Of a DNA stretch of 64,000 bases, positions 5,775 through 22,127 are shown piece after piece. Position 1 is the first letter of the stretch, and each line of letters begins with the position of its first letter. A program made the translations under genes and the position numbers. The stretch covers positions 434,001-498,000 of the forward strand of contig NZ_JAUHHC010000003.1 in NCBI RefSeq assembly GCF_030410485.1, read 5' to 3'. Source of the stretch: Roseateles violae (GTDB lineage Bacteria > Pseudomonadota > Gammaproteobacteria > Burkholderiales > Burkholderiaceae_C). The notes beneath the pieces are model-generated. The model ran no database searches. It was not told the DNA's origin and saw nothing but the letters and a program-made list of their open reading frames with translations.

Positions 5775-6032
5775 TTAGACCGGCGTGACGATGACCGTCG
5801 AACGGCTCAGTTCGCCCTTGGTGGCAAACGACACCGTGCCGTCGACCAGCGCGAACAGCGTGTGGTCCTTGCCCATGCCGACATTCGTGCCAGCGTGGAA
5901 CTTGGTGCCGCGCTGACGCACGATGATCGAACCGGCCGAGATGGTCTGACCGCCGTAAACCTTCACGCCCAGCATCTTGGGCTTGGAGTCGCGGCCGTTC
6001 CGTGTGGAACCGCCGCCCTTTTTCTGTGCCAT
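5775..6032 (-). CDS. rpmA: 50S ribosomal protein L27
   Basis: Ribosomal protein whose N-terminus reaches the peptidyl-transferase centre. The 85-residue product begins [22 protein letters not shown], the standard L27 N-terminus without the cleavable Firmicutes extension. It contains the [22 protein letters not shown] core. It follows rplU by about 40 bp in the usual rplU-rpmA pair and is followed by an intrinsic terminator. Confidence 0.98.
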
Positions 6033-6075
6033 GGATTAGCTCCTTGAACTGTTGGCGAAGAAAAACCGCTATCGC

Positions 6076-6387
6076 TTAGCCGTTGACCGCGCTGATTTCC
6101 AGCTCGGTGTAGGTCTGGCGATGGCCCTGGCTCTTCTTGTAGTGCTTGCGACGACGCAGCTTGAAGATGCGCACCTTGTCGTGCTTACCTTGCGCCACAA
6201 CCGTGGCCTTAACGCTTGCGCCAGCAACCAAGGGAGTGCCAACCTTCAGTTCAGCGCCGTTTCCGACGGCCAGAACCTGGTCGATCACAATCTCTTGGCC
6301 AACATCCGCAGCAATCTGTTCTACCTTGATCTTTTCGCCAGCAGCAACCTTGTATTGCTTGCCACCGGTTTTTATGACCGCGTACAT
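6076..6387 (-). CDS. rplU: 50S ribosomal protein L21
   Basis: Ribosomal protein of the 50S subunit that binds 23S rRNA. The 103-residue product [20 protein letters not shown] ends [12 protein letters not shown] and contains the [16 protein letters not shown] basic motif; the length is exact for the family. The start ATG at 6385-6387 is fixed by the universally conserved N-terminus. It leads the rplU-rpmA operon, with a good sigma-70-like promoter about 115 bp upstream. Confidence 0.98.
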
Positions 6388-6500
6388 ATCAGCCCTTTCA
6401 ATAAAACAAGCCCGGCGCCGCTCAAACGGCCGCGCCTGGCCCCGACTCCGCAGCCCATCGGGCACGCACTGGACACACCCAAAAAGACGCAGAGCCGGCG

Positions 6501-6529
6501 AGTGTAGCATGAACGCGGGAAAACACCAA
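6501..6529 (-). promoter_or_regulatory. Sigma-70-type promoter for rplU-rpmA
   Basis: On the minus strand TTGGTG (complement of 6524-6529) and TACACT (complement of 6501-6506) are separated by exactly 17 bp, and TGC precedes the -10. The expected start is near 6494, giving a leader of about 107 nt before rplU. Confidence 0.65.
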
Positions 6530-6629
6530 GGGCAGGCCAGAGATGAGGGTGGCGGCTGCGGCGTCGGCGGCCCGCCCGCCGAGCACCCGCAGACCGGCCT
6601 GCCTCGCGACCGGCACTCGGCATGCTCCC

Positions 6630-6635
6630 TATAAT
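6630..6635 (+). promoter_or_regulatory. -10 element of the ispB promoter
   Basis: A perfect TATAAT hexamer lies 28 bp upstream of the GTG at 6664. No convincing -35 is visible. The expected transcription start is near 6642. That makes the in-frame ATG at 6622 untranscribed and supports the GTG start for ispB. Confidence 0.55.
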
Positions 6636-6663
6636 CCGTGATTCGTCAAAAAGAGAGTTGAGA

Positions 6664-7668
6664 GTGCACGCAGCGTCCGCCTCGCCCCCCGCCCCCTCCA
6701 ACACGCTGGCCGAAGTGCTGGCCGAGTTGGCCGCCGAGATGCAGCAGGTCGATGCCGTCATCGCCCGGCGCCTCAGCTCCGACGTTGCCCTGATCAACCA
6801 GATCTCCGCCTACATCGTCCACGCCGGCGGCAAGCGCATGCGCCCGAAGCTGGTGCTGCTGTTCGCCAATGCGCTGGGCTATGACCGGCCCGAGCGCTTC
6901 GAACTGGCCGCCGTCGTCGAGTTCATCCATACCGCGACTCTGCTGCACGACGATGTCGTCGACGAATCGTCGCTGCGCCGGGGCAAGCCGACCGCCAATG
7001 CGCTGTTCGGCAATGCGGCCAGCGTGCTGGTCGGTGACTTCCTCTACTCGCGCGCCTTCCAGATGATGGTCGGCGTCAACCGCATGCGTGTGCTCGAGGT
7101 GCTGGCCGAGGCAACCAATGTGATCGCCGAGGGCGAGGTCCTGCAGCTGATCAATATGCACGACCCCGACATCACGGTGGAGAGCTATCTGCGCGTGATC
7201 CGCTACAAGACCGCCAAGCTGTTCGAGGCCAGCGCGCGTCTCGGCGCGGTGCTGGCCGATGCCAGCCCGGCCGTCGAGGATGCCTGCGCCGGCTATGGCC
7301 GCGCGCTGGGCACAGCCTTCCAGCTGATCGACGACGTGCTCGACTACGAGGGCGATCCGCACGCGCTCGGCAAGAACATCGGCGACGATCTGCGCGAGGG
7401 CAAGACCACCTTGCCGCTGCTGATCGCGATGGAGCGCGGCACGCCCGAACAACGCGCGCTGCTGCGCCACGCGATCGAGCATGGCGAGCAGGAAAAGCTG
7501 GCGGAGATCGTTGCCATCGTGCGCGAGACCGGCGCGCTCGAGGCGACGCGCGAGGCCGCGCGCGCCGAGGCCAAGCTGGCCCGCGAATGTTTAAATCAGC
7601 TGCCTCTTAACAAGTGGCAGGAAAGTCTGCTAGAATTTGCGGCTCAGTCGGTTGAGAGATCTTTTTGA
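6664..7668 (+). CDS. ispB: Octaprenyl diphosphate synthase (trans long-chain prenyltransferase)
   Basis: Makes the all-trans polyprenyl diphosphate side chain of ubiquinone from farnesyl diphosphate and isopentenyl diphosphate. The 334-residue protein carries both aspartate-rich motifs: DDVVD at 96-100, followed by RRGKPT, and DDVLD at 223-227. It also has GGKRMRPKLVLL near 55-66. The GTG at 6664 is preferred over the ATG at 6622 because a perfect TATAAT overlaps the latter, and a purine-rich AAGAGAG lies just upstream of the GTG. It is divergent from rplU, its usual neighbour. C40 product length is inferred from the lineage, not from the sequence. Confidence 0.94.
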   Translation: MHAASASPPAPSNTLAEVLAELAAEMQQVDAVIARRLSSDVALINQISAYIVHAGGKRMRPKLVLLFANALGYDRPERFELAAVVEFIHTATLLHDDVVDESSLRRGKPTANALFGNAASVLVGDFLYSRAFQMMVGVNRMRVLEVLAEATNVIAEGEVLQLINMHDPDITVESYLRVIRYKTAKLFEASARLGAVLADASPAVEDACAGYGRALGTAFQLIDDVLDYEGDPHALGKNIGDDLREGKTTLPLLIAMERGTPEQRALLRHAIEHGEQEKLAEIVAIVRETGALEATREAARAEAKLARECLNQLPLNKWQESLLEFAAQSVERSF

Positions 7669-7704
7669 TCGGATCGAACGACAGAACAAGAAGTTGAGAA
7701 CAAA

Positions 7705-7719
7705 TCAGGGCTCCCCTGA
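7705..7719 (+). other. Small stem-loop before tRNA-Pro
   Basis: TCAGGG (7705-7710), loop CTC and CCCTGA (7714-7719) form a 6-bp hairpin between the ispB stop and the tRNA. There is no T-run, so it is more likely a processing feature of the tRNA precursor than a terminator. Weak call. Confidence 0.35.
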
Positions 7720-7733
7720 CTTGATCGACACAT

Positions 7734-7810
7734 CGGGGTGTAGCTTAGCCTGGTAGAGCGCTACGTTCGGGACGTAGAGGCCGGAGGTTCGAATCCTCTC
7801 ACCCCGACCA
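7734..7810 (+). tRNA. tRNA-Pro, anticodon CGG
   Basis: A 77-nt cloverleaf with encoded CCA. The acceptor arm is CGGGGTG/CACCCCG. The anticodon stem CTACG/CGTAG holds loop TTCGGGA, with anticodon CGG at 7768-7770. The T-arm contains GGTTCGAATCC. It reads CCG proline codons, which are frequent in this GC-rich genome. It lies 65 bp after ispB and is followed by an intrinsic terminator, so read-through from ispB is possible. Confidence 0.97.
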
Positions 7811-7840
7811 GAATTTTTCCTTGGTGACAAGGACTGCAGA

Positions 7841-7864
7841 AGCCGCGGACTCCGCGGCTTTTTG
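7841..7864 (+). terminator. Intrinsic terminator after tRNA-Pro
   Basis: AGCCGCGG (7841-7848), loop ACT and CCGCGGCT (7852-7859) form a perfect 8-bp stem followed by a TTTTT-type run into TTTGCTTTT. It ends the ispB/tRNA-Pro transcription unit before the convergent oxygenase gene. Confidence 0.88.
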
Positions 7865-7885
7865 CTTTTCGGGCCGCCTTCCCAA

Positions 7886-8908
7886 TCAGGGCGACAGCAC
7901 CGTCCCGCTGAGCTCGGGGAACACCTTGCCGACCTTGGCCAGCAGGTAGTCGCCATAGCTGCCTTCGAAGGCATGGACGTTGGCGCCGTCCCAGCGGCTG
8001 GCACGGTCGTCCTCGGCGGCGGGCAGGCCCTCGATAGCGGCCGGCCGCGAGAAGAAGTTCGGATCGAAGAACAGCGGGAACGACAGGCGGTCGCGACCGC
8101 TGCTGTTGAGCCGCACCCGATGCGGCGTCGAGCGGTAGAGGCCGCGCGTCATCCGGTCCAGCATGTCGCCGATATTGCAGACGAAGCTGCCCGGCAGTGG
8201 CGGTGCCTCGATCCAGCCGGCGCGCGTCCGGACCTGCAGGCCCCCGGTGGCATCCTGGTACAGCAGGGTCAGCAGGCCGTAGTCGGTGTGCTCGCCCACG
8301 CCCCATTGCACCGCCTCCGGCGCCGGCCGGCTCGGGTAGTTGAAGAGGCGAAACAGGATCAGCGGATCGGCCGTGTAGCGCGCCGCGAAGTAGTCGGCCG
8401 GCAGCGCCAGGCTCAGCGCGATGCCGCGCATCAGCGCATGGCCCAGCGCCGTGCCGGCCTGCAGATAGTCGAGCACCGCCTCGCGCAGCCCGGCCGGCCG
8501 CTCGGGCCAGAGATTGGGGCCATGCAGCGGCGTGCCGGCGCGCACCAGCGCATGCTCGGCATCCAGCTCGCTGCCGAGGTAGAACCCCTCCTTCCAGTCC
8601 GGCCGGCCCGAGGTCAGCTCGCCGCCAGTGCGGAAATAGCCGCGCCAGGCGCGGCCGCCGGCGCTCATAGTCAGGCGCAGCTTCTCGGCCTCGGGCTGGG
8701 CGAAGAACTCACGCGCCAATGCATCGAGGCGCTCGACCAGCGCCGCCGGCACGCCATGGCCGCGCACATAGAAGAAGCCATGCGCACGGCAGGCGGCGCC
8801 GATCTGCGCGGCAACCTCGGCCAGCGCCGTGGCGTCGGGCGTCGCGGCCACCAGCGGCGCCACGTCGATCACCGGCAGCTGGTGTTCGAGCGGAGACAGG
8901 GCAGTCAT
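7886..8908 (-). CDS. 2-oxoglutarate/Fe(II)-dependent dioxygenase of the isopenicillin N synthase-like family
   Basis: A 340-residue cytoplasmic non-haem iron oxygenase. The N-terminal DIOX_N-like region (about 11-125) has [10 protein letters not shown] and [12 protein letters not shown]. The C-terminal 2OG-Fe(II) domain (about 180-285) supplies the iron ligands H207 and D209 in [12 protein letters not shown] and H263 in STPHRV. R274 and S276 (RLSF) would bind 2-oxoglutarate. The fold and chemistry are well supported; the substrate is unknown. It stands alone, with a tRNA terminator on one side and a divergent amino-acid transporter on the other. A role in amino-acid or small-molecule oxidation is possible, but this rests on proximity only. 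Confidence 0.88.
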
Positions 8909-9073
8909 CGTCGGCAAGGGATGAAGCAAGCGGTTCGCATGCGCGACAGCATGCCGCAAATCCCGGCGCGGCCTGCACCGATTTGCGCCTAAGCATATGT
9001 GCAAGCCTTTGTTCCCGGCGCGGACAGGCCTTTCTAAGCTGAGGCCCTGTTCACTGCACCTAAGGAAAAGCCC

Positions 9074-9916
9074 ATGAGCCTGCTGCGCCGCCGCGCCTTT
9101 GCGATCACCGCCATCACCGCCACCTTGCTGGGTCTGGCCGCCCCGGCCCGCGCCGACCAGCTCGACGACATCCGCAAGAAGGGCGAGCTGGTCGTCGGCG
9201 TGCTCGGCACCGACGAGCCGAACAGCTTCATCGATCCGAAGTCGCGCGAGATCATCGGCTACGAGGTCGACCTGGCCCGCGCGATCGCCGCCCGGCTGGG
9301 CGTGCCGCTGAAGCTCAAGCAGCTGGCCGTGGCCGCGCGCATCCCCGAGCTGCAGCAAGGCCATGTCGATCTGCTGGCCGCCAGCCTCACGCACAACAAG
9401 GAGCGCGAGGCGGTGATCGACTTTTCGCTGACCACCTTCGTCACCGGGCAGAAGGTGCTGGTCAAGAAGGACAGCGGCATCAGGAACGTCGCCGAGCTCG
9501 CCGGCAAGAAGGTCGTCACCGTTAAGGGAGGCACGCAGGAGCCCAATATCCGCAAGGCGGTCGGCCAGGTGGAGGTGGTCACCTTCGAGACCGGGCCGCA
9601 GGCCTTCCAGGCGCTGCAGCAGGGCAAGGGCATCGCCTTCGTCAACGACGAGGTCTCGCTGCTGGACCAGTACGCCAAGCTCGGCGGCGCACAGGCGCAG
9701 TACGCGATCCTGCCGCAGAACATCAGCATCGAGCCGCTGGCCCTGGGGATCCGCAAGGGCGAGACCAAGTTCAAGGCCGTGGTCGACGAGGTGCTGCGCG
9801 AGCTGGAAAAGCGCGGCGAGGCCGAGAAGCTGTTCGTCAAGTGGTACGGCCCCGAGACGCGGCTGAAGTTCCCCAGCCGCGGCTTCAAGATCGACAGCGA
9901 CAAGGTCGAGAGCTGA
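9074..9916 (+). CDS. Polar amino-acid ABC transporter, periplasmic binding protein
   Basis: Extracytoplasmic solute-binding protein family 3. The 280-residue product has a signal peptide [20 protein letters not shown] ending APARA (about 1-27). The two-lobed SBP_bac_3 domain follows: [53 protein letters not shown] and [20 protein letters not shown]. An AAGGAAAAG ribosome site sits just before the ATG. Two permease genes follow, separated by an intrinsic terminator; this arrangement is known to keep binding protein in excess over permease. Likely ligands are glutamate/aspartate-type or other polar amino acids, but specificity cannot be read from the sequence. Confidence 0.9.
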
Positions 9917-9935
9917 TCCGGCTCGCGATCCTGAC

Positions 9936-9966
9936 GGCGCCCCGCGCAATCCGCGGGGCGCCTTTT
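9936..9966 (+). terminator. Terminator or attenuator between binding-protein and permease genes
   Basis: GGCGCCCCGCG (9936-9946) pairs with CGCGGGGCGCC (9952-9962), followed by TTTT. The 11-bp GC stem sits 20 bp after the binding-protein stop and 17 bp before the first permease, so partial termination would lower permease expression. Confidence 0.8.
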
Positions 9967-9982
9967 CCTTGTGCCTGACGCC

Positions 9983-10681
9983 ATGCCCCTGCTCGATTTC
10001 GGCCCGCTGCTGGCCGGCCCCTACCGCGACTGGCTGATCGCCGGCCTGCGCCTGTCGCTGCTGCTGACCGCCGTCTGCCTGCTGCTGGCGTTGCCGCTGG
10101 CCAGCCTCGTCGCGCTGGCGCGCCTGTCGCCGCTGCGCGGCCTGCGCGCGTTGGCCTGGGCCTATGTCGAGGGCATGCGCAGCGTGCCGCTGCTCGTGCA
10201 CCTGCTGTTCTGGTATTTCGCTGCGCCGGAGCTGCTGCCGGACGCCCCCAAGACCTGGCTCTATGCCGGCCAGATCGAGACCGCCAGCGCGATCGCCGCG
10301 CTGACGCTGTACACCGCCGCCTATATGGCCGAGGACATGCGCTCGGGTCTCAACGCGGTGCCGCGGACGCAGTTCGAGGCGGCGCGCGCGCTGGGCTTTA
10401 CCTTTCTGGCGACGATGCGGCTGGTGATCCTGCCGCAGGCGCTGCGCATCACGGTGCCGCCGCTGATCTCGCAGACCCTGAACCTGTGGAAGAACACCAG
10501 CATCGCCACCGTGATCGGCACGGCCGAGCTGATGTACCAGGCACAGCGGGTCGAGACGGCCAGCTTCCGCGGCTTCGAGACCTTTGCCCTCGCCACCGCC
10601 GTCTACCTGGGCCTGTCGCTGGCGATCAGTCTGGCGGGCTGGGCCTTTCAGCGGCGCTATCCGACCCGGCCCGCCGCATGA
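9983..10681 (+). CDS. Polar amino-acid ABC transporter permease (first)
   Basis: Inner-membrane permease of the His/Glu/Gln/Arg/opine family, 232 residues with about five hydrophobic segments. The conserved cytoplasmic EAA loop [20 protein letters not shown] (about residues 133-152) docks the ATPase. The ATG at 9983 ([10 protein letters not shown]) is taken as start; an in-frame GTG at 9971 is the alternative, and neither has a strong ribosome site. It overlaps the second permease by ATGA, so the two are coupled. No ATP-binding subunit gene is adjacent. Confidence 0.88.
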
Positions 10682-11379
10682 AGGAGCTGATCGACAGCTA
10701 CTGGCTGTACTTCCTGCTCGGTCAGTACCCGCATGGCCCGCTGGGCGGCCTGGCGCTGACCCTGCTGCTGGCCGGCAGCGCGATGCTGCTGGCCGCGCCG
10801 CTGGGCCTGCTGGTCGGCGTGGCGCGCATCAGCCCCTGGGCGGCGCTGCGCGTGCCGGTGACGGCCCTGGTCTGGGTGGTGCGCGGCACGCCGCTGCTGA
10901 TGGTGGTGTTCTGGGCCTATTTCTTCCTGCCGGTCCTCACCGGCCACAAGAGCAGCCAGCTGGCGACCATGCTGGCGGCGCTGGTGCTGTTCGACGCCGC
11001 CTATCTGGCCGAGATCGTGCGCGCCGGCCTGCAGGGCCTGCCGCGCGGCCAATTGCAGGCGGCGCGGGCGCTGGGCCTGACCTGGCTGCAGGCGCTGCGC
11101 CTGGTGCTGCTGCCGCAGGCGCTGCGCCAGATGCTGCCCTCGCTGGTCAACCAGTTCGTCACCACCATCAAGCACACCTCGCTGGGCACCATCATCGGCC
11201 TGTCGGAGCTGAGCTTCGTCGCCAACCAGATCAATATCCAGGTGCTGGTCAAACCGGTCGAGGTCTATGCCAGCCTGGCCGCCAGCTACTTCCTGCTCTG
11301 CTTCGGCCTGTCGCGCCTGGCCGGCCTGCTGGAGCGTCGGCCCGGCCTCAGGGCGACGGCGCCAGCGCCCACCAGCTAG
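10678..11379 (+). CDS. Polar amino-acid ABC transporter permease (second)
   Basis: Second inner-membrane permease of the pair, 233 residues. The EAA loop reads [20 protein letters not shown], and [18 protein letters not shown] follows it, typical of GltJ/GltK-type subunits. The start ATG at 10678-10680 overlaps the first permease stop. The 3' end runs about 30 bp into the end of the convergent helicase gene. The expected ATPase gene does not follow, so the energising subunit must be encoded elsewhere or shared. Confidence 0.9.
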
Positions 11380-13624
11380 GCAGCAGGCGCTGCACCTCGG
11401 CACGGCGATAGCGGTCATCGATCAGGTGCAGCACGCCCTCGTCGCTGGGCGTGCGGATCACGCGGCCGGCCGCCTGCACGACCTTCTGCAGGCCCGGGTA
11501 CAGATAGGCGTAGTCGTAGCCGGCGCCGAACAGCGCCTGCATGCGCAACCGGATCTGCTCGTTGACCGGGTTCAGCTGCGGCAGGCCCAGGGTCGACAAA
11601 AAGGCGCCAATCAGCCGCCGGCCCGGTAGATCGATGCCCTCCGAGAAGGCGCCGCCCAGCACGGCGAAGCCTATGCCCTGCCCGCCCTCGTCGAAGCGCT
11701 CGAGGAACTGGCGCTGCTCGGCCTCGCCCATGCGCCGCGACTGGCACCAGATCGGCAGGGTCGGGTGTTGCGCCGACAGCAGCTCGGCGACCTGCTGCAG
11801 ATAGTTGTAGCTGCTGAAGAAGGCCAGGTAGTTGCCGGGCCGCGCGGCGAACTGCGCCGCCATCAGATCGACGATGGGTGCCAGCGAGGCGGCGCGGTCG
11901 CGGTAGCGGGTCGAGATCGCGCCGGCGATATGCACCTGCAGCTGCGCGGCGCGAAAGGGCGAGTCCACATCCACCCAGACATGGCGCTCGGGCAGGCCCA
12001 GCAGATCGGCGTAGTAGTCGCTGGGCTGCAGAGTGGCCGAGAACAGGCAGCTGCTGTGCGCCGCCTCCAGCCGCGGCCGCAGAAAGGGCGCCGGCACCAG
12101 ATTGCGCAGGCTGATGACCGAATGACCCAGCTTGGCCGGCGCGGCCGGCCGGACCACGTCGACCAGCGAATGCGCGTCCAGCGTCTCGGTCAAGCGCAGC
12201 CAGTGCAGCGCCTCGAAGCCGAAGTCCAGCAGCGCTGGATCCGGCTCGGCCGCCTGCTCGACCAGATGATCCTGGATCGCCGTGCTGCATTGCTGCAACG
12301 CCTGCAGCAGGCGCTCGGGCACGGCGGGCAGCACGCGGTAGTCCTCGCCCGGCTCCTTGTCCAGCGCGACCCAGGCGCGGCGCAGCTTGTCCAGCGCCTT
12401 CTTGATCGCCGGCACGGCGGCCGCGGCGCGCGAGCGGCGCGCCGCCGTCAGGCTCTCGGGCCGCAGCTCGGCGCTGTACATCAGGCGGCCGCGCTCCACC
12501 AGATTGTGGGCCTCGTCGACCAGCAGGCCGACCCGCCACTGGTTTGCCTGCGTCAAGCCGTGCAGCAGGCCACCCAGATCGAAGTAGTAGTTGTAGTCGC
12601 CGACGACCACGTCCACCCAGCGCGCCAGTTCCTGGCTCAGGTAATAGGGGCAGACCTGGTGCCGCAGCGCCAGCTCGCGCAGCGCCGCCTGCTCCAGCGG
12701 CACGCCGGCCTCCAGCGCCGCCGTGCGCGCGGCCGGCAACCGCTCGTAGAAGCCGCGCGCCAGCGGGCAGGATTCGCCATGGCAGGCCTTGTCCGGATGC
12801 TCGCAGGCCTTGTCGCGCGCGACCAGCTCGAGCACGCGCAGCGGCCCGGCATCGAGGCGGCGCAGGGCGTTCAGCGCCAGTTCGCGGCCCGAGGTCTTGG
12901 CGGCCAGGAAGAAGATCTTGTCCAGGCGCTGCGCCGGCGTCGCCTTCAGCTGCGGGAACAGGGTACCCACCGTCTTGCCGATGCCGGTCGGCGCCTGCGC
13001 CAGCAGGCAGCGGCCGCCGGCCGCGGCGCGGTAGACCGCCTCGGCCAAGGGCCGCTGGCCCTGGCGGAAGCCGTCGAAGGGAAAGCGCAGCGCCGCCAGC
13101 GCCGCGTCGCGCGCTTCGCGATGCGCGATCTGCCGCTGCGCCCAGGCCAGGAAGCGCTCGCAATGCTGCTCGAAATGCTGGCGCAGCGCCGCGGCCGTGC
13201 AGTGCTCGCTGATCAGCGTCTCGCGCTGGCTGCCGATGTCGAAATAGACCAGGCCGACCTCCAGCTGCTCCAGGCCCTCCTGCTGGCACAGCAGCCAGCC
13301 ATAGATCTTGGCCTGCGCCCAGTGCAGCTGCCGCTGCGCCGGCGGCTGGCGCTCGAGCCGACCCTTGTAGGTCTTGACCTCCTCCAGCCGGCCGCGCGCC
13401 GGATCAAAGCCATCGGCACGGCCGCGCACCCGCAGCGGCCCATGGTCGCCGCTCAATGCCAGCTCGCTGCGATAGCCGGCGCCGCGCCGCGCGGCAACCA
13501 GGGCATGGCCGGCGATGCCTTCCAGGGCGGTCGGCGCCGGCGTGAAGCGCAGATCGAGATCGCCCTGCTTGGCGGTGAACTCGCAAAGCTCCCGCACGGC
13601 GACCGTGTAGCGGGGCTCGCTCAC
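11348..13624 (-). CDS. PD-(D/E)XK nuclease-XPD/DinG-like helicase fusion
   Basis: A 758-residue predicted DNA-repair enzyme. Residues 1-160 look like a RecB/Cas4-type nuclease domain: GRADGFD (D71, D74), EEVK (E82, K84) and QAKIY (Q104, Y108) match the catalytic D...(D/E)XK...QxxxY pattern. Residues about 180-758 are an SF2 XPD/DinG-like 5'-3' helicase with Walker A APTGIGKT (211-218) and DEAH box (370-373). It ends with GFAVLGGAFSEGIDLPGR and VVQAAGRVIRTPSDEG (motif VI). Four cysteines (C274, C281, C286, C325) between Walker A and DEAH are placed to bind the iron-sulphur cluster of this family. The GTG start overlaps the upstream gene's stop by GTGA. A LexA-type box precedes the operon, suggesting damage induction. 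Confidence 0.85.
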   Translation of the reverse strand: MSEPRYTVAVRELCEFTAKQGDLDLRFTPAPTALEGIAGHALVAARRGAGYRSELALSGDHGPLRVRGRADGFDPARGRLEEVKTYKGRLERQPPAQRQLHWAQAKIYGWLLCQQEGLEQLEVGLVYFDIGSQRETLISEHCTAAALRQHFEQHCERFLAWAQRQIAHREARDAALAALRFPFDGFRQGQRPLAEAVYRAAAGGRCLLAQAPTGIGKTVGTLFPQLKATPAQRLDKIFFLAAKTSGRELALNALRRLDAGPLRVLELVARDKACEHPDKACHGESCPLARGFYERLPAARTAALEAGVPLEQAALRELALRHQVCPYYLSQELARWVDVVVGDYNYYFDLGGLLHGLTQANQWRVGLLVDEAHNLVERGRLMYSAELRPESLTAARRSRAAAAVPAIKKALDKLRRAWVALDKEPGEDYRVLPAVPERLLQALQQCSTAIQDHLVEQAAEPDPALLDFGFEALHWLRLTETLDAHSLVDVVRPAAPAKLGHSVISLRNLVPAPFLRPRLEAAHSSCLFSATLQPSDYYADLLGLPERHVWVDVDSPFRAAQLQVHIAGAISTRYRDRAASLAPIVDLMAAQFAARPGNYLAFFSSYNYLQQVAELLSAQHPTLPIWCQSRRMGEAEQRQFLERFDEGGQGIGFAVLGGAFSEGIDLPGRRLIGAFLSTLGLPQLNPVNEQIRLRMQALFGAGYDYAYLYPGLQKVVQAAGRVIRTPSDEGVLHLIDDRYRRAEVQRLLPSWWALAPSP

Positions 13625-14421
13625 GGCCGCTCGTCGCCCAGCGCCGCCTGCGGCGACGCGTCCTCGTCGCTGCTCCAGGGCGTGGCCTTGGCCAGCGCCA
13701 GCCAGACGGCGAAGGGCAAGCTGCAGCGGCTGTGGCGGGCCGGGCGCAGCAGCTCGAAGCGGCCGGCGTCCAGCTCGCCATGCAGCACCCAGACGCCGAA
13801 CTGCTCGGGGATCTCCTCGGCCTCGGCCACGCCGGCCGGGAACACGTAATAGCACTCGCTGCACAGCCATTGATAGGCCTGGCGCTTGGCCGCATGGCGC
13901 AGGTCCGACAACAGGTCGGCGCGGCTGGCCTTGATCTCATGCACCATGGGCTGCAGATAGGCCTCCACCGTCGTGTTGCGCACCGAGAACAGATCGGGCC
14001 GGGCCATGCGCCAGACATTGCGCGCCGCGACCGCCGCCGCATCAAGCGGCTCGCCGCTCAGCAGGGGCGGCTGGCCCGCCGGCGCGGCGCCCTCCTCGAC
14101 CAGCGCCCGCAGCGAGAGCTCGCGCCAGACGATGCGGCCCGCGCCCGACAGCTGGGCGGCGAAGCGCTGTGCCAGCCGGTCATGGGCCGACAGCGCGCGC
14201 TGGCCCTGCTGGCGCGATCGGGCCAGCAGGGCGATGCCGGCCTCGGTCAGCGCCAGGGTCTCACGGCCGTCGAGGGCGAGGCGCTGCTCGAGCAGCTGCG
14301 CGGCGAGCAGGTCGATCTCGATGCCGTCGCGGCAGGGCCAGCCGGCCGAGCGCCAGACCTGCATCAGCCGGGTTCGATGCAGACGGGTCAGGACGGGCGC
14401 CGCGCGCAGATCACCGCTCAT
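13621..14421 (-). CDS. PD-(D/E)XK (MmcB-like) putative DNA-repair nuclease
   Basis: A 266-residue protein without a firm family name. The first 80 residues (VWRSAGWPCRDGIEIDLLA, then LALTEAGIALL) look like a winged helix. The C-terminal part holds a PD-(D/E)XK-like core: E101 in WRELSL, P142-D143 in ARPDLFSVR, E162-x-K164 in HEIKASRADLLSDL, then KRQAYQWLCSECYYVFP. That last stretch resembles the MmcB family of DNA-repair nucleases. The ATG at 14419-14421 (MSGDLRAAPV) is the first start after a TATAAT/SOS-box element; the TSS predicted from it falls almost on the ATG. It is coupled by 4 bp to the helicase fusion and probably acts in the same repair pathway. Function is inferred from motifs and context only. 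Confidence 0.6.
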   Translation of the reverse strand: MSGDLRAAPVLTRLHRTRLMQVWRSAGWPCRDGIEIDLLAAQLLEQRLALDGRETLALTEAGIALLARSRQQGQRALSAHDRLAQRFAAQLSGAGRIVWRELSLRALVEEGAAPAGQPPLLSGEPLDAAAVAARNVWRMARPDLFSVRNTTVEAYLQPMVHEIKASRADLLSDLRHAAKRQAYQWLCSECYYVFPAGVAEAEEIPEQFGVWVLHGELDAGRFELLRPARHSRCSLPFAVWLALAKATPWSSDEDASPQAALGDERP

Positions 14422-14422
14422 G

Positions 14423-14444
14423 CCACTGATTATAAATACAGTGG
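14423..14444 (-). promoter_or_regulatory. Putative LexA (SOS) box overlapping a TATAAT -10 element
   Basis: On the minus strand the sequence reads CCACTG, ten A/T-only bases, then CAGTGG: a CTG-N10-CAG element with perfect 6-bp inverted arms. The core CTGTATTTATAATCAG differs from the CTGT-N8-ACAG LexA consensus at one half-site base. The N10 contains a perfect TATAAT (complement of 14429-14434), so LexA bound here would block the promoter. It ends one base before the ATG of the nuclease-helicase operon. Confidence 0.72.
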
Positions 14445-14476
14445 TTCTTCGGCCCGTGCCGCAGCCGGCGCCTACT

Positions 14477-14866
14477 TCAGCCGGCGCCGGGGGCCGGGCC
14501 GGCAACCGGCGGCAGCAGCTTGCGCAGCAGCTCGCGGTCGACCGGCTTGCGCAGATAGTGGTCGAAACGGGCAAAACTTTCCGACACCCGTTCCTCGGCG
14601 CCGCCCCAGCCGGTGACGGCGATCAGCACGATGTCGTCGCCATATCGCTGGCGCAGCCGCTGCGACAGTTCATGCCCGCTGACGCCGGGCATATGGATGT
14701 CCATCAGCACGCACAGCGGCTGGAACTCCTCGATCAGCGACAGCGCCTGCACGCCGCTGCTGGCGGTGCGCACGGTGTAGCCGTCCATCTCCAGCACCAT
14801 CGCCAGGGTCTCCGCCGAGTCGGGCACATCGTCGACGACGACCACGCGGACTTCTTCCTTGCTCAT
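14477..14866 (-). CDS. Stand-alone receiver-domain response regulator
   Basis: A 129-residue CheY-like single-domain protein. VVVVDDVPDSAETLAMVL holds the acidic pocket, CVLMDIHMPGVSGHEL the phospho-acceptor aspartate in LMD, and AVTGWG and YLRKPVD the conserved Thr and Lys. There is no output domain. The ATG at 14864-14866 (MSKEEVRV) follows a GGGGG-rich ribosome site. No histidine kinase gene is adjacent, so the partner is unknown; such receivers often relay phosphate in hybrid-kinase circuits. The gene lies upstream of, and in the same direction as, the nuclease operon, but a separate promoter lies between them. Confidence 0.85.
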   Translation of the reverse strand: MSKEEVRVVVVDDVPDSAETLAMVLEMDGYTVRTASSGVQALSLIEEFQPLCVLMDIHMPGVSGHELSQRLRQRYGDDIVLIAVTGWGGAEERVSESFARFDHYLRKPVDRELLRKLLPPVAGPAPGAG

Positions 14867-15297
14867 CCCCCTGCCCCCTTTACTTTTCGCCAGCACCGAA
14901 CGGCAGCGCGGCCGGCATCATGGCAACCGAGCCTGCTTGGGCGACGCTCAGCCGTTCATCCAGTCCGCACCGCATAGGGCGCTCACACCGGCAGCATGCC
15001 GTGAAGAAAGGACGATAGCCAAAGCAAGCGTGCATTGTCCAGTATCGCCCGCTGCCGCGGTGTCGCCAGCCCGGCCAGCAGGCGCAGGCCCAGACAGGGC
15101 GCCAGCATCGGCATCAGCAGCCGGTGCGGCGCTGCTAGGCAAGCAAGGTACCCAGGCGGCCGGGCAGCGGGCGTCGTGGCGCTTGCGGCGCCAGCACGGC
15201 GCGCGGCAGATGGCCGACCGGCCGTGCCGTCGTCGCCGGCGGGAATTCCGCTTGCCGCTGCCGCAGCAGACCAGGACAGCCAGCGAAAGGACAGATC
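14867..15297. other. Intergenic stretch without a supported gene
   Basis: About 430 bp between the receiver gene and the acidic-protein gene. Short open frames on both strands (for example minus 14948-15142, 64 codons, Ala-rich) have no ribosome site, family motif or sensible composition. It must hold the promoters of two divergent genes, but no clear -35/-10 pair could be recognised. Confidence 0.5.
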
Positions 15298-15732
15298 ATG
15301 GGACGCAGCAGCCTGCTCGGCATCGACCGAGCCCCTCTCGAACCCAAGGGCCGCGACGAAGAGGCGCTGGGGCCCGGCGACAACTCGGACAGCGGCAGCG
15401 ACCGCGCCGGTACGGACAGCCTGCCCTCGGCCGATCCGGCCGAGCCGGTCGACGTGACCCTAGGCCGCGACCTTGCCCATGCGCCGCTGGAGACCCGCGA
15501 GCCGCGAGCACAGGAGGACGGCGCCGACATCTCGGTCGACCAGATCTTCGACGATGAGGAACTGCCCGGCGTCGACAAGGCCGAGGCGATCGACCGCGCG
15601 ATGGCGCCGGATCCCGGCGACGAGGAGGAGGGCGAAGAGGATGATGAAGACGAGGATGAGGATCGCCTGCGCCCGACGGGCAAGAAGGGAAGGACGACAA
15701 ACACCAAGCCGCGCGCCCGACGCGGGGACTGA
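15298..15732 (+). CDS. Acidic, intrinsically disordered hypothetical protein
   Basis: A 144-residue protein with no recognised domain. The start MGRSSLLGIDRAPLEPKGRD follows a GAAAGGACAG ribosome site. It has a Ser/Asp/Gly-rich segment (LGPGDNSDSGSD), then ADISVDQIFDDEELPGVDKAEAIDRAM. A run of Asp/Glu (about 107-122) and a basic tail (KKGRTTNTKPRARRGD) close it. The charge pattern suggests a disordered polyampholyte. I have seen similar MGxSSLLG...LGPGDxSDSGSD openings in Burkholderiales hypothetical proteins, but assign no function. It lies 236 bp upstream of pilB on the same strand; whether it has any link to pili is unknown. Confidence 0.6.
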   Translation: MGRSSLLGIDRAPLEPKGRDEEALGPGDNSDSGSDRAGTDSLPSADPAEPVDVTLGRDLAHAPLETREPRAQEDGADISVDQIFDDEELPGVDKAEAIDRAMAPDPGDEEEGEEDDEDEDEDRLRPTGKKGRTTNTKPRARRGD

Positions 15733-15968
15733 GGGCCCGACAAAGCCGCGTCGGAAGGTGAGGACGGCAAGAGCCGGAGCTCTGAGAGGCCGCCGGTTCG
15801 GGTAGACCCGCAGCCGCGGCCCCGACTGTTGCGCGGCGGACGACGCGGGCATTCAAGCCACGGTAAAAGCGGTGCAAAGCCACGCACCAGAAGGCTTTGC
15901 GGCTTGCGGCTGGGTTTAAAGTCTGACATCCCGCCCCGCAAATCGACCCTCGCCTGTCCGCCGAACCC

Positions 15969-17690
15969 GTGGAAACCACCCTGGTCCAACCGCCCCAGTC
16001 CGCCCTGTCCGGCGTCGCACGGATGCTGGTCCATGCCGGCAAGCTGCAGGCCAAGCAGGCCGAGGAGCTGGTCCGCCAGTCGCGCGAGAAGAAGGTCAGC
16101 TTCGTCAACTCGGTGATCGCCGCCGGCGTCGTCTCGCCGGTCGACCTGGCGCATACCCTGTCGACCGCCCTGGCCTTGCCGCTGCTGGACCTCGGCGCGG
16201 TCGATCCGCAGCGCATGCCGGCGAACATCATCGACGGCAAGCTGGCGGCGCAGTACCAGGTCGTCGCGCTGGGCCGGCGCGGCAACCGGCTGTTCATCGG
16301 CGGCGCCGACCCAACCGACCAGGAGGTGGTCGAGCGGATCAAGTTCGCGACGCAGCTGGCGCCCGAGTGGGTGATCGTCGAACACGACAAGCTGATGAAG
16401 CTGCTCGCCGGCAGCGGCGTCAGCGCCAGCGAGGCGCTGGAGTCGATGGCCGGCGGCGACATCGATTTCGACATCGCCGAGGAAGACGCGGCGCCGCAGC
16501 AGGACGCCGCCGAGCTGGCCGACGTCGAGGACGCGCCGGTCGTGCGCTTTCTGCAGAAGATGCTGGTCGATGCGATCAATATGCGCGCCTCGGATCTGCA
16601 CTTCGAGCCCTACGAATTCCACTACCGGGTGCGCTTCCGCGTCGACGGCGAGCTGCGCGAGATCACCCAGCCGCCGGTGGCGATCAAGGACAAGCTGTCC
16701 TCGCGCATCAAGGTGATCTCGCGGCTGGACATCGCCGAACGCCGCGTGCCGCAGGACGGCCGGATGAAGCTGAAGTTCGGCGCCAAGTCGATCGACTTCC
16801 GCGTCAGCACCTTGCCGACCCTGTTCGGCGAGAAGATCGTGATCCGTATCCTCGACTCCTCCTCGGCCAAGCTGGGCATCGACGCGCTGGGCTACGAGAA
16901 GATCGAGAAGGAACGCCTGATGTCGGCGATCCAGCGGCCCTACGGCATGGTGCTGGTGACCGGCCCGACCGGTTCCGGCAAGACGGTGTCGCTCTACACC
17001 TGCCTGAACATCCTGAACCAGCCGGGCGTCAATATCGCCACCGTCGAGGACCCGGCCGAAATCAACTTGCCAGGCATCAACCAGGTCAATGTCAACGACA
17101 AGGCCGGCCTGACCTTCTCGGCCGCGCTGAAGTCCTTCCTGCGCCAGGATCCGGACATCATCATGGTCGGCGAAATCCGCGACCTGGAGACGGCCGACAT
17201 CGCGATCAAGGCCGCCCAGACCGGCCATATGGTGATGTCGACGCTGCACACCAACGACGCGCCGAAGACGCTGACCCGGCTGCTGAATATGGGCGTCGCG
17301 CCCTTCAATATCGCGTCCAGCGTGCTCTTGATCACCGCCCAGCGCCTGGTGCGGCGCCTGTGCGAGAACTGCAAGGCGGCGGCCGACTATCCGCGCGAGG
17401 CGCTGTTGCGCGCCGGCTATCTGGACGAGGAACTGGACGGCAGCTGGAAGCCCTATCGCGCGGTTGGCTGTTCGAATTGCAACAACGGGTATCGAGGCCG
17501 GGTCGGCCTTTACCAAGTGATGCCGATTACCGAGGCAATCCAGCGCATCATCCTGGCCGAGGGAACGGCGATGGACATCGCCGAGCAGGCGCGCCTCGAT
17601 GGCGTGCGCGATCTGCGGCAATCGGGCCTGGTCAAGGTGCGATCCGGCGTGACGACGCTGGAGGAAGTGCTTTCGGCCACCAATGAATAA
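15969..17690 (+). CDS. pilB: Type IV pilus extension ATPase PilB
   Basis: Cytoplasmic hexameric ATPase that powers pilin polymerisation. The 573-residue protein has the N-terminal MshEN/GspE_N region (about 15-150) and the GspE ATPase core. Core motifs are the Asp box near HFEPYE (211-216), Walker A GPTGSGKT (332-339), Walker B DPDIIMVGEIRD (394-405) and His box STLHTND. A zinc-binding tetracysteine (C465, C468, C501, C504) is also present. The GTG at 15969 gives METTLVQPPQ; no strong ribosome site precedes it, so an internal start is possible, but the N-terminal homology begins soon after. It leads pilB-pilC-pilD. Confidence 0.95.
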   Translation: METTLVQPPQSALSGVARMLVHAGKLQAKQAEELVRQSREKKVSFVNSVIAAGVVSPVDLAHTLSTALALPLLDLGAVDPQRMPANIIDGKLAAQYQVVALGRRGNRLFIGGADPTDQEVVERIKFATQLAPEWVIVEHDKLMKLLAGSGVSASEALESMAGGDIDFDIAEEDAAPQQDAAELADVEDAPVVRFLQKMLVDAINMRASDLHFEPYEFHYRVRFRVDGELREITQPPVAIKDKLSSRIKVISRLDIAERRVPQDGRMKLKFGAKSIDFRVSTLPTLFGEKIVIRILDSSSAKLGIDALGYEKIEKERLMSAIQRPYGMVLVTGPTGSGKTVSLYTCLNILNQPGVNIATVEDPAEINLPGINQVNVNDKAGLTFSAALKSFLRQDPDIIMVGEIRDLETADIAIKAAQTGHMVMSTLHTNDAPKTLTRLLNMGVAPFNIASSVLLITAQRLVRRLCENCKAAADYPREALLRAGYLDEELDGSWKPYRAVGCSNCNNGYRGRVGLYQVMPITEAIQRIILAEGTAMDIAEQARLDGVRDLRQSGLVKVRSGVTTLEEVLSATNE

Positions 17691-17731
17691 AACGGTCCTG
17701 AGCGACCAGGGGCACAAGCCCGGGAGATGAT

Positions 17732-18949
17732 ATGGCGACAGCGGCAGCCAAAGGGGTGAAGGACTTTGTCTACGAGTGGGAGGGCAAGGACCGCAATGGC
17801 AAGATCGTGCGCGGCGAATTGCGCGCCGGCGGCGAGGCGATGGTCAGCGCGACCTTGCGCCGCCAGGGCATCCTGGTCAACAAGGTCAAGAAGCGCCGCA
17901 ACAGCGGCGGCAAGGCGATCAAGCAGAAGGACATCGCCGTCTTCACCCGCCAGCTGGCGACCATGATGCGCGCCGGCGTGCCACTGCTGCAATCGTTCGA
18001 CATCGTCGCCCGCGGCAGCACCAATCCCAAGCTGACCCGGCTCCTGAACGAGATCCGCCAGGACGTCGAGACCGGCACCAGCCTGTCCTCGGCCTTCCGC
18101 AAGCACCCGCTGTACTTCGACGCGCTGTACTGCAATCTGGTCGAGGCCGGTGAATCGGGCGGCATTCTGGAATCGCTGCTGGACCGGCTGGCGATCTACC
18201 AGGAAAAGACGGTCGCGATCAAGAACAAGATCAAGTCGGCGCTGACCTATCCGGTCGCGGTGATGGTGGTCGCCTTCGTGGTCGTCGCCGTCATCATGAT
18301 CTTCGTCGTGCCGGCCTTCAAGGACGTCTTCACCTCCTTCGGTGCCGATCTGCCGGCGCCGACCCTGATGGTGATCGCGATGTCGGAGTTCTTCGTCTCC
18401 TACTGGTATCTGATCTTCGGCGGCATCGGTGGCGGCATCTATTTCTTCCTGCAATCCTGGAGACGTTCCGAGAAGATGCAGAAGAGCATGGACCGGCTGA
18501 TGCTGAAGATCCCGGTGTTCGGCGACCTGCTCTACAAGTCGGCGGTCGCGCGCTGGACCCGCACGCTGTCGACCATGTTCGCCGCCGGCGTGCCGCTGGT
18601 CGAGGCGCTCGATTCGGTCGGCGGCGCTTCCGGCAATGCGGTCTTTTCCGAGGCGACCGAAAAGATCCAGCGTGATGTCTCGACCGGCGCCGCGCTGACG
18701 ACCTCGATGCAGCAGACCGGCATCTTCCCGGTGATGGTGCTGCAGATGGCCTCGATCGGCGAGGAATCGGGCTCGCTGGACCATATGCTGGCCAAGTCGG
18801 CCGAGTTCTACGAGGACGAGGTCGACGAGGCGGTCAAGGCGCTGTCCAGCCTGATGGAGCCCTTCATCATCGTCATTCTCGGCGGCATCATCGGCGGCAT
18901 CGTCGTCTCGATGTACCTGCCCATCTTCAAGCTGGGTCAGGTGGTCTGA
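17732..18949 (+). CDS. pilC: Type IV pilus inner-membrane platform protein PilC
   Basis: Inner-membrane platform that couples PilB (and PilT) to pilin. The 405-residue protein has two T2SSF domains (about 72-195 and 275-398; FTRQLATMMRAGVPLLQSFDIV and RWTRTLSTMFAAGVPLVEALDSV) and three hydrophobic segments near 170-200, 220-240 and 375-400. GGGAGATGAT precedes the ATG. It follows pilB by about 40 bp and precedes pilD by 3 bp. Confidence 0.97.
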   Translation: MATAAAKGVKDFVYEWEGKDRNGKIVRGELRAGGEAMVSATLRRQGILVNKVKKRRNSGGKAIKQKDIAVFTRQLATMMRAGVPLLQSFDIVARGSTNPKLTRLLNEIRQDVETGTSLSSAFRKHPLYFDALYCNLVEAGESGGILESLLDRLAIYQEKTVAIKNKIKSALTYPVAVMVVAFVVVAVIMIFVVPAFKDVFTSFGADLPAPTLMVIAMSEFFVSYWYLIFGGIGGGIYFFLQSWRRSEKMQKSMDRLMLKIPVFGDLLYKSAVARWTRTLSTMFAAGVPLVEALDSVGGASGNAVFSEATEKIQRDVSTGAALTTSMQQTGIFPVMVLQMASIGEESGSLDHMLAKSAEFYEDEVDEAVKALSSLMEPFIIVILGGIIGGIVVSMYLPIFKLGQVV

Positions 18950-18952
18950 GCG

Positions 18953-19885
18953 ATGCAAGCAAGCGAGATCGAATGGCTGCTCTCGCCCTGGGCGCTGGGC
19001 CTGCTGGGCCTGTGCGTGGGCAGCTTTCTGAACGTGGTCATCCACCGCCTGCCGCTGATGCTGGAGCGGCAATGGCTGGCCGAGGCCTGCGGCCAGCTGA
19101 GCGACGGCGCCGAGCTGAGCCGTGCCGCCGCGCTGCCGCGGCCCGAGGCCGACAAGCTGGCCGCCGCGGCGACCAAGCTCAGCGAGCAGGTCCAGAAGCT
19201 GCCCTATCTGGGCATCGCATTGCCGCGCTCACGCTGCCCGTCCTGCGGCCATCAGCTGGCCTGGCACGAGAATCTGCCGCTGCTGGGCTGGCTGCGTCTG
19301 GGCGGCAAATGCGCGGCCTGCAAGGCGCCAATCTCGCTGCGTTATCCGCTGATCGAGCTGGCCACCGGCCTGGCCTTTGCGGGCCTGTCCTGGCGCTTCG
19401 GCGCGCAGCCGAGCACCTTGCTGTGGTGCGGCTTCGTCGCGGCCCTGCTGGCCCTGGCGGCGATCGACTGGGACACCACCCTGCTGCCCGATGCCCTGAA
19501 CCAGCCGCTCTTGTGGGCCGGGCTGGCGGTCGCGCTGTTCGGCTGGACTGTTCCCCTGCCGAACGCGCTGATCGGCGCCCTGCTCGGCTATCTGTCGCTG
19601 TGGTCCATCTACTGGCTGTTCAAGCTGGCGACCGGCAAGGAAGGCATGGGCTACGGCGACTTCAAGCTGCTGGCCGCCCTGGGCGCCTGGCTGGGCTGGC
19701 AGATGATCCTGCCCATCGTGCTCGGCGCCTCGCTGATCGGCGCGATCGTGGGCATCGCGATGAAGATGAGCGCCTCGCTGCGCGAGGGCCGCTACGTGCC
19801 CTTCGGCCCCTTCCTGGCCGGCGGCGGCCTGGTCGTGCTGTTTGCCGGGCCGGAACGCGTGCTGGGCTGGCTCGGCTGGGCTTGA
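18953..19885 (+). CDS. pilD: Prepilin peptidase and N-methyltransferase PilD
   Basis: Inner-membrane aspartic protease that removes prepilin leader peptides and methylates the new N-terminus. The 310-residue, eight-helix-type protein has the zinc tetracysteine C95, C98, C120, C123. The two catalytic aspartates lie in [11 protein letters not shown] (about D172/D174) and GYGDFKL (D236). [12 protein letters not shown] starts the peptidase N-domain. The stretch between HRLP and the first CxxC is longer and more Ala-rich than I expect for PilD. It processes the prepilins encoded at 36.4-39.8 kb. Confidence 0.96.
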
Positions 19886-19895
19886 GCATGGCGCC

Positions 19896-20501
19896 ATGCG
19901 CATCGGCCTGACCGGCGGCATCGGTAGCGGCAAGAGCACCGTCTCGGCCTTCTGGGTCGAGGCCGGCGCCACCGTCATCGACACCGATGCGATCGCGCGC
20001 CAGCTGAGCGCCGCCGGCGGCGCGGCAATGCCGGCGATTGCGGCCGAGTTCGGGCCCGAGCTAGTCGCCGCCGACGGCTCGCTCGATCGCGCCCGCATGC
20101 GCGAGCTGGCATTCGCCGATGCCAGCGCCAAGCGCCGGCTGGAGGCCATCCTGCACCCGCTGATCGGCGCCGAGACGCAGGCCCAGGCCGCCGCGGCGCC
20201 CGGCGATCTGATCGTCTTCGACGTGCCGCTGCTGGTCGAATCGGGCCGCTGGCGCGCGCGCGTCGATCGCGTGCTGCTGGTCGACTGCAGCGAGGCGACG
20301 CAGATCCGCCGCGTGATGGAGCGTTCGGCCTGGAGCCGCGAGGCGGTCGAGGCGGTGCTGCATCAGCAGGCCAGCCGCGAACGGCGTCGCGCCTGCGCCG
20401 ATGCGGTGATCGCCAACGAGCAGGCCAGCCTCGCGCAGCTGCGCGAGCAGGTGCTGACGCTGGCCCGGCTGTGGCGCAAGGAACAAAGCCGCGGGCTGTG
20501 A
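19896..20501 (+). CDS. coaE: Dephospho-CoA kinase
   Basis: Last step of coenzyme A synthesis, phosphorylation of the 3'-hydroxyl of dephospho-CoA. The 201-residue protein starts MRIGLTGGIGSGKST, with P-loop at 7-15, and has the conserved VIDTDAIARQL and VFDVPLLVESG motifs. The ATG at 19896-19898 is used because it abuts the P-loop in all family members; an upstream in-frame start would lie inside pilD. The pilD-coaE-zapD-yacG order is standard in beta- and gamma-proteobacteria. Confidence 0.97.
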   Translation: MRIGLTGGIGSGKSTVSAFWVEAGATVIDTDAIARQLSAAGGAAMPAIAAEFGPELVAADGSLDRARMRELAFADASAKRRLEAILHPLIGAETQAQAAAAPGDLIVFDVPLLVESGRWRARVDRVLLVDCSEATQIRRVMERSAWSREAVEAVLHQQASRERRRACADAVIANEQASLAQLREQVLTLARLWRKEQSRGL

Positions 20502-20560
20502 AACAATCACCGCATCGCTAGCGCTCGCGCGGGCGGCCTTTGCGGACTTCATGCCTGAGG

Positions 20561-21325
20561 ATGACCACCTTGGTCCTTTACGAGTACCCGTTCAACGAGA
20601 GCATCCGCACGATGCTGCGTCTGGAGCATCTGTTCGACCGCCTCGGTCAGCTGATCGCGCGCGAAACCCCGCTGGACCATCATTTCGCCTTGGTGACGAT
20701 CTTCGAGATCATGGACGTGTCCTCGCGCGCCGATCTGAAATCCGATCTGCTGAAGGAGCTGGAGCGGCACAAGGCGCAGCTGAACAGCTACCGCGGCAAG
20801 CCCGGCGTCTCCGAGAGCGCGCTCGACGAGGTGATTGCGCGCATCGACCATGCCTTCAACGGCCTGAACCAGGTGCAGGGCAAGGCCGGCGCCGCGCTGA
20901 CCGGCAACGAATGGCTGATGAGCATCCGCAGCCGCATCAGCATCCCCGGCGGCACCTGCGAATTCGACCTGCCCGCCTATTACAGCTGGCAGCAACTGCT
21001 GCCGGTGCGCCGGCGCAATGACCTGATGCAGTGGACGCAGACCTTGATGCCCTTGGCCGAGGCCTTGCAGGTGCTGCTGGGCCTGCTGCGCGATTCCGGC
21101 TCTCCGCACAAGGTGGCGGCCAGCGGCGGCCAGTTCCAGCAGAGCCTGGCGGCCGGTCGGGTCTATCAGTTGCTGCGCATGCGCATCGATCCGAGCCTGG
21201 GGCTGATCCCCGAGATCAGCGGCCACCGGCTGATGGTCAATATCCGGCTGATGCGCCAGGACGAGGAAGGCCGGCTGAAACAGGCGCCCGAAGACGCCAG
21301 CTTCGAACTGACCTTGTGCGCATGA
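20561..21325 (+). CDS. zapD: Cell division protein ZapD (Z-ring associated)
   Basis: Cytoplasmic protein that cross-links FtsZ filaments. The 254-residue product has the family landmarks [21 protein letters not shown] at the N-terminus, [23 protein letters not shown] in the middle and [13 protein letters not shown] near the end. The ATG at 20561 (MTTLVLYEY) fits family N-termini; TTG 20540 is an alternative. Its last bases overlap yacG by ATGA. Confidence 0.93.
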
Positions 21326-21513
21326 GCGAACCCGTCACTCCGAAGATCGTCCGCTGTCCCACCTGCGGCGGCGACAGCGTGTTCGCGCCCAGCAATCCCT
21401 GGCGCCCCTTCTGCTGCGAGCGCTGCCGCCAGATCGATCTGGGCGCCTGGGCCAGCGAGAGCTTCCGCGTCGAGGCGAGCCCGCCGGTCGAGGACGATCA
21501 GCTACCGCACTAG
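21322..21513 (+). CDS. yacG: DNA gyrase inhibitor YacG (zinc protein)
   Basis: Small zinc-finger protein that binds GyrB and blocks DNA binding by gyrase in E. coli. The 63-residue protein shows the four-cysteine site C12-x2-C15-x15-C31-x3-C35 and the [19 protein letters not shown] core. Start and length are normal. It is translationally coupled to zapD (ATGA), and its stop overlaps the convergent HAD-gene stop by 4 bp. Confidence 0.95.
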
Positions 21514-22127
21514 CCGAGCGCGGCGAGCTCGCGGCGCGCCTGCGCCGCATCGCTGAACAGCAGGCCCTGCCAGCCCAGCGCCCGTGCCGCCTCGATATTG
21601 ACCGGATGGTCGTCGAGAAAGACGCAGCTCTCGGGTGCTACATCCCAACGCTGGCAGGCAAGCCGGAAGATCTCGGCGCGCGGCTTGGACTGCTTGACGC
21701 GGCCGGAGAAGATGCCGTCGTCGAACCACTGGTGCAGCGGATGGCTCTGCTGCAGATGGTCGGCAAAGGGCTCGGGCATGTTCGACAGGTAGAAGAGCCG
21801 GTGGCCCGCGCGCTTGAGCTCCTCGATCAGGGCCACCGTCTCGGTCTGCAGCTGCAGCTCGTCCGGCACCGCGGCGACGACCTGCGCAACCTCGGCCGCC
21901 GGCCAGCCGGTGCGCGCGGCGATGCGCTCGATCACCGTCGGCGCGTCGATCAGGCCCTGGTCGAAGTCGCCCCAGGCGCCGCCGTAGTTCTCGAAGAACT
22001 GGGCGGCGATCTCGCGGCCCTGCTCGGCATCGGCCGCCCGGTGCGGCCAGACGCGCGCCAGAAAACTCGGCGGATGCCAGCGGAACAGCACGCCGCCGAA
22101 GTCGAAGACGATGTTCTTTTTCATCAT
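21510..22127 (-). CDS. HAD-superfamily phosphatase (subfamily IA, YihX-like)
   Basis: A 205-residue cytoplasmic phosphatase. Motif [10 protein letters not shown] (nucleophile D9, with Gly at the usual second Asp, as in YihX-type HADs), motif [11 protein letters not shown], motif [12 protein letters not shown] and motif [11 protein letters not shown] are all present, with a helical cap at about 15-90. YihX of E. coli acts on glucose-1-phosphate; the position right after pgi, in the same operon, fits a hexose-phosphate substrate but does not prove it. The first of two ATG codons (22127) overlaps the pgi stop as ATGA. Confidence 0.85.

Follow-up and report, generated by a model that had tools for sequence, protein, structure and literature searches.

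A predicted SOS-controlled gene pair of Burkholderiales, in which an MmcB-like nuclease appears to take the place of FAN1 before an EndoDinG helicase

FAN1 is a nuclease that frees cross-linked DNA. In Pseudomonas aeruginosa, FAN1 (PA1865) is induced by damage and takes part in the unhooking of interstrand cross-links (PMC12796719), and a plant FeS helicase of the FANCJ type cooperates with FAN1 to repair cross-links (PMC6550410). MmcB of Caulobacter is an SOS-regulated nuclease that protects against mitomycin C and has been proposed to act on interstrand cross-links (PMC9578287). Among the helicases, the EndoDinG type, which includes Bdellovibrio and Finegoldia magna DinG, was described in a 2025 review and is characterized by an N-terminal RecB/Cas4-type PD-(D/E)XK domain, FeS cysteines and an XPD-like core (PMC11981726). 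Furthermore, the P. aeruginosa genes PA1044-PA1045, a hypothetical gene followed by a DinG helicase gene, are directly regulated by LexA, although they are barely induced (PMC12796719), and a 2012 study lists betaproteobacterial 'Helicase c2' genes with predicted LexA sites (PMC3323433).

Here, we analysed a gene pair in a stretch of 64,000 nucleotides (the window) from the 5.2 Mb genome of a member of the Burkholderiales. Gene A (13621-14421, minus strand) encodes a 266-residue protein with a winged helix and an MmcB-like PD-(D/E)XK nuclease region, and gene H (11348-13624, minus strand) encodes a 758-residue EndoDinG. The two reading frames share the four bases GTGA (13621-13624, minus strand), where the GTG with which gene H begins runs into the stop codon of gene A; this arrangement predicts translational coupling. 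The earlier note had described this junction correctly, and the 4 bp overlap also occurs in most relatives. With a probability of roughly 60%, we regard A-H as a LexA-repressed module that is induced to deal with interstrand cross-links and with branched intermediates of replication related to them. The box and its conservation, the coupling of the genes, their domains and intact active-site motifs, the alternation of A with FAN1 and the LexA boxes before FAN1 are observed, whereas LexA binding, induction, the enzyme activities and the cross-link substrate are what we infer. The EndoDinG helicase class, the SOS control of DinG-like helicases and MmcB itself are already known, while a search of the open full-text literature, which leaves most subscription journals outside its scope, found no mention of the gene A family, of its pairing with an EndoDinG gene in one operon or of its exchange with FAN1.

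The promoter region carries the first line of evidence. A CTG-N10-CAG element with perfect 6-bp arms and an internal TATAAT, which the earlier note had placed next to the ATG, is indeed present: positions 14423-14444 read CCACTGATTATAAATACAGTGG on the plus strand, with the inverted arms CCACTG/CAGTGG. On the coding (minus) strand, this LexA (SOS) box reads CCACTGTATTTATAATCAGTGG and has the form CTGT-N8-TCAG, hence it differs from CTGT-N8-ACAG by one mismatch and retains seven of the eight core bases. Its spacer consists of A/T throughout and the box ends one base before the ATG of gene A at 14421. With the -10 hexamer TATAAT lying inside the box, LexA bound there would be expected to block the promoter. 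The hexamer comes to an end just seven bases ahead of the ATG, and the gene A mRNA of this genome is therefore predicted to have no leader, or almost none. No good -35 element is visible upstream of this -10, and the site is absent from the list returned by a strict promoter scan. On the same strand, a single-domain response regulator gene (14477-14896, minus strand) terminates about 33 bp ahead of the box. This gene was found in none of the relatives' loci, which sets it outside the conserved unit; it is probably a chance neighbour of A-H, and the pair may be co-transcribed with it.

The fit to LexA was judged against the genome's own SOS sites. The genome encodes a LexA repressor and contains twelve places of the form CTGT-N8-ACAG, of which seven are AT-rich and precede recA, umuD, imuA, two radical-SAM repair genes (of the PA0069 and TIGR03916 families), an integron integrase gene and a phasin gene. 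A symmetric matrix built from these seven boxes, with the gene A box left out, gives the latter 18.9 bits; the training sites score 30-35 bits, and no other place in the window exceeds 7.8 bits. The box is thus a correct observation and lies far above chance. A whole-genome search with the box revealed no other copy at fewer than three mismatches; among the matches with three mismatches, one is situated upstream of lexA. The box of lexA itself, CTGGATAGATATTCAG, is also imperfect, which indicates that a box that departs from the consensus and ends in TCAG is nothing exceptional in this genome.

Two of the other sites deserve a remark of their own. The chromosomal integron integrase gene (L007, G000:C8:753979; 374-1417, minus strand; NF011946, E 7e-158) is preceded, at a distance of about 100 bp, by a perfect LexA box, and cassette recombination is probably SOS-controlled in this genome too. 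In addition, the gene for a phasin of PHA granules (PhaP6; L010, G000:C11:362275) has a perfect LexA-like box, CTGTATGAACATACAG, 130 bp upstream and is thus a candidate SOS target, if a surprising one.

From the GTDB genome collection, sixty A-encoding loci were retrieved; within the window's bacterial family, about half of the genomes sampled contain gene A. The box was found upstream of gene A in 42 of the 60 loci, across many genera. When these 42 regions were aligned with the window (n=43), the CTGT and CAG columns were 100% conserved, compared with mostly 30-65% in the flanks and 88% and 81% for the bases touching the box. The earlier note had proposed scanning the upstream regions of relatives with a LexA matrix; at a threshold of at least 13 bits within 200 bp of gene A, 34 of 57 relatives carry a LexA-like site, whereas the rest of the same DNA predicts 0.24 loci. 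The common form among relatives is CTGTATTTATAATCAG, which retains TATAAT and would thereby explain the one departure from the LexA consensus.

The inclusion of TATAAT could also mean that the palindrome is simply an AT-rich core promoter, its symmetry being accidental or serving another dimeric regulator, and one A-H clade does lack the palindrome. This is extremely unlikely, however, given that the matrix derived from other SOS boxes fits the site, that several relatives (L083, L108, L112, L115 and L123) have a perfect CTGT-N8-ACAG without TATAAT at the same place, and that some box-less relatives carry the pair behind other SOS genes. In L093, A-H lies 0.8 kb after lexA; in L087 and L091 it follows a run of box, tag and racemase gene; and in L109, L114 and L122 gene A comes after a box and a gene for an SRAP (SOS-associated peptidase) protein divergent from umuDC, although in L114 and L122 no gene H was detected after gene A. 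Such settings lend support to SOS control of the pair.

According to the earlier note, absence of the box from relatives that keep the gene pair would speak against its reading. Such absence is restricted to a minority, namely a few other loci and one clade with Rhizobacter and Rubrivivax members (L104, L107, L110, L111 and L188), which is genuinely devoid of a LexA box. The helicase of this clade branches apart from the other A-partnered helicases, which suggests a second acquisition or a transfer of the A-H arrangement. Moreover, gene A has a near-perfect or perfect box and no gene H within 5 kb in L115 and L119, which indicates that, as far as its promoter sequence goes, gene A can be an SOS gene by itself. 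With LexA encoded in the genome, boxes at recA, umuD and imuA, and the gene A box present across genera, the earlier proposal of an SOS-induced repair module gains support, at the level of prediction. A-like proteins with about 30% identity, annotated as hypothetical, are also encoded on conjugative plasmids of Polaromonas, Burkholderia and Paraburkholderia (L142, L143 and L144); neither the helicase gene nor a LexA box lies near these plasmid genes.

Protein A as a single sequence gave no match in Pfam, NCBIfam or PADLOC scans. Its AlphaFold (AF2) model (pLDDT 85.5) has a winged-helix-like N-terminus and a nuclease half, and in the alignment of orthologues P142, D143, E162 and K164 are invariant and E101 is conserved in over 90%; E101, D143, E162 and K164 are the candidate catalytic residues. 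The best fold match, and the only PDB match below E 0.001, is 3dnx (E 5e-6), an MmcB-family protein according to the MmcB protein profile (E 6e-48). The homology between A and MmcB is bridged by L170, a protein from a different proteobacterium, which is recognised by the A profile (E 5e-15, with a small search space) and also passes the Pfam MmcB model PF06319 (36.5 bits, cut-off 22). In addition, PHROG family 5429, annotated as a DNA repair protein, matches A directly (E 7e-12). Direct comparison of the A and MmcB profiles is modest (hhalign probability 32%, E 5e-4), and no match to PF06319 was listed among 31 A orthologues at E<=1. On the basis of the fold match to 3dnx, the bridging protein and PHROG 5429, A is placed as an MmcB relative; judged by these comparisons, it is a divergent one with an added winged helix, which has the MmcB fold and catalytic motif and stands outside PF06319 as drawn. 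A and MmcB (PF06319, formerly DUF1052) share a PD-(D/E)XK fold with an E...D...E-x-K motif, LexA control and a place in DNA repair, the latter two being predicted for A. They differ in that A has the extra winged-helix N-terminus, a linker within the nuclease half and a helicase gene coupled to its own, and scores below the Pfam model. The earlier note had called the first gene a PD-(D/E)XK protein of no established function; the nuclease fold is borne out by the model, to which a second PD-(D/E)XK domain at the helicase N-terminus has to be added, and the protein can now be described as MmcB-like by fold, motif and bridging protein.

Protein H matches Pfam Helicase_C_2 and DEAD_2. Its N-terminus is a RecB/Cas4-type PD-(D/E)XK nuclease domain (H40, E54, D71, E82-x-K84 and Q104xxxY108), followed by an XPD-like SF2 helicase core (Walker A at 212-218, DEAH at 370-373) with the four FeS cysteines C274, C281, C286 and C325, and these motif residues are invariant in 21 orthologues. 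From its first domain to its last, H can be aligned to F. magna DinG, for which a crystal structure exists (9kqh; profile E 1e-157, Foldseek E 6e-58, both matches covering the full length). With the N-terminal H, E, D and E-x-K residues and the four-cysteine FeS motif and SF2 core in place, H is, on motif and alignment grounds, an EndoDinG, in which an XPD-like FeS helicase carries a fused nuclease domain of the RecB/Cas4 type. The XPD/DinG-like helicase of the earlier note therefore keeps its XPD-like core, but it is not the E. coli-type DinG. The only other Helicase_C_2 gene of the genome is DinG/YoaA-like, and it was rejected as an alternative SOS helicase because it has no box. The nearest relatives of H are from Sphaerotilaceae, e.g., Paucibacter and Methylibium. 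The section of the 2025 review on EndoDinG mentions neither a nuclease partner nor a LexA operon, whereas A-H has both, the latter by prediction.

A DinG-like helicase next to a restriction-like nuclease might instead serve in defence against phages or plasmids, with damage induction being secondary. H is strongly matched by the PADLOC model of type IV-A DinG, and A homologues reside on conjugative plasmids of Burkholderiaceae, as would suit such a role. Nevertheless, we found no CRISPR-like array at 6000-22000 of the window and recognised no cas genes on inspection of the neighbouring ORFs, for which reason H was rejected as a type IV-A CRISPR CasDinG. Furthermore, the neighbours of A-H look like housekeeping genes, and neither the presence of A in about half of the family's sampled genomes nor the conservation of the box in most fetched relatives favours a defence function, which we consider highly unlikely.

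The partner of H in other lineages hints at a role in cross-link repair. We searched 399 Burkholderiales genomes for H and inspected the region upstream of it; outside the window's lineage, the preceding gene usually has a VRR-NUC-like stretch at its end. Three of these upstream proteins were scanned and proved to be full FAN1 (FAN1_HTH, SAP and VRR_NUC), one of them matching P. aeruginosa FAN1 (4r89) at E 3e-189. In about 20 other genomes, one of them within the window's own family (G133), FAN1 is the gene immediately before H, and a LexA box is present at the FAN1 start in 12 of the 19 FAN1-H genomes for which larger flanks were fetched. A was considered as FAN1 itself and rejected: it has no FAN1_HTH, SAP or VRR_NUC domain, and the hhalign probability against FAN1 is 0.1%. 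Like A, bacterial FAN1 (PA1865; 4r89, 5y7g) is a PD-(D/E)XK nuclease whose gene directly precedes the same helicase, commonly with a LexA box; A differs from it in being half the size and sharing no detectable homology. In the H tree, the A-partnered state needs two changes, which are enforced by well-supported branches. As other Burkholderiales have the same helicase after FAN1, FAN1 and the MmcB-like A appear interchangeable in the slot before H, which hints that two different nucleases are able to do one job.

It is also conceivable that the pair is SOS-controlled and serves double-strand-break ends or stalled forks generally, through resection or R-loop removal, with A being some other structure-specific nuclease. 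This main rival draws on the N-terminal domain of H, which is of the RecE/EXO5/Cas4/AddB type that trims DNA ends, and on the action of DinG helicases on R-loops and forks (PMC11981726). It is, however, rather unlikely in our judgement, as FAN1 and the MmcB-like A, the two partners between which H alternates, each belong to a family tied to cross-link repair.

In three genomes of another family (f32), H stands without a partner and has a strong box of its own, in agreement with the LexA sites predicted in 2012 (PMC3323433). Those 'Helicase c2' genes share with H the order, the kind of helicase and the regulator and may be its counterparts; the section of that study on them describes no partner nucleases. 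PA1044-PA1045 is a possible equivalent of A-H, likened to it by description (PMC12796719). A sparse phylum-wide profile search gave one match of the same class, L168, which was considered as a possible PA1044 and rejected, as it is an MmcB-like gene in another setting and not part of an A-H-type pair.

Taken as a cross-link module, A-H would work as follows. LexA bound to the box overlapping the -10 would repress the operon; upon DNA damage, activated RecA would lead to LexA cleavage, and A and H would be made together. Protein A would bind DNA by its winged helix and nick branched or cross-linked DNA at its MmcB-like PD-(D/E)XK site, while H, a predicted 5'-3' FeS helicase with its own Cas4/RecB-like nuclease, would open and trim the DNA around the lesion. 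A would then fill the slot held by FAN1 in other Burkholderiales. More tentatively, and with somewhat less than even confidence, we propose that the non-orthologous FAN1 and the winged-helix MmcB-like enzyme swap before one EndoDinG under LexA, forming together with it an SOS-induced cross-link-unhooking machine analogous to eukaryotic FAN1 and FANCJ.

To our knowledge, bacterial repair of interstrand cross-links beyond UvrABC and recombination is poorly defined. On the present reading, a nuclease family that is unannotated and carried by about half of the genomes sampled from its bacterial family would gain a specific role that experiments can address, and MmcB, FAN1 and EndoDinG would be tied into one functional slot with predicted SOS regulation. 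An operon in which FAN1 can be swapped before an XPD/FANCJ-type helicase may thus offer a simple system for studying how a nuclease and a helicase share the unhooking step.
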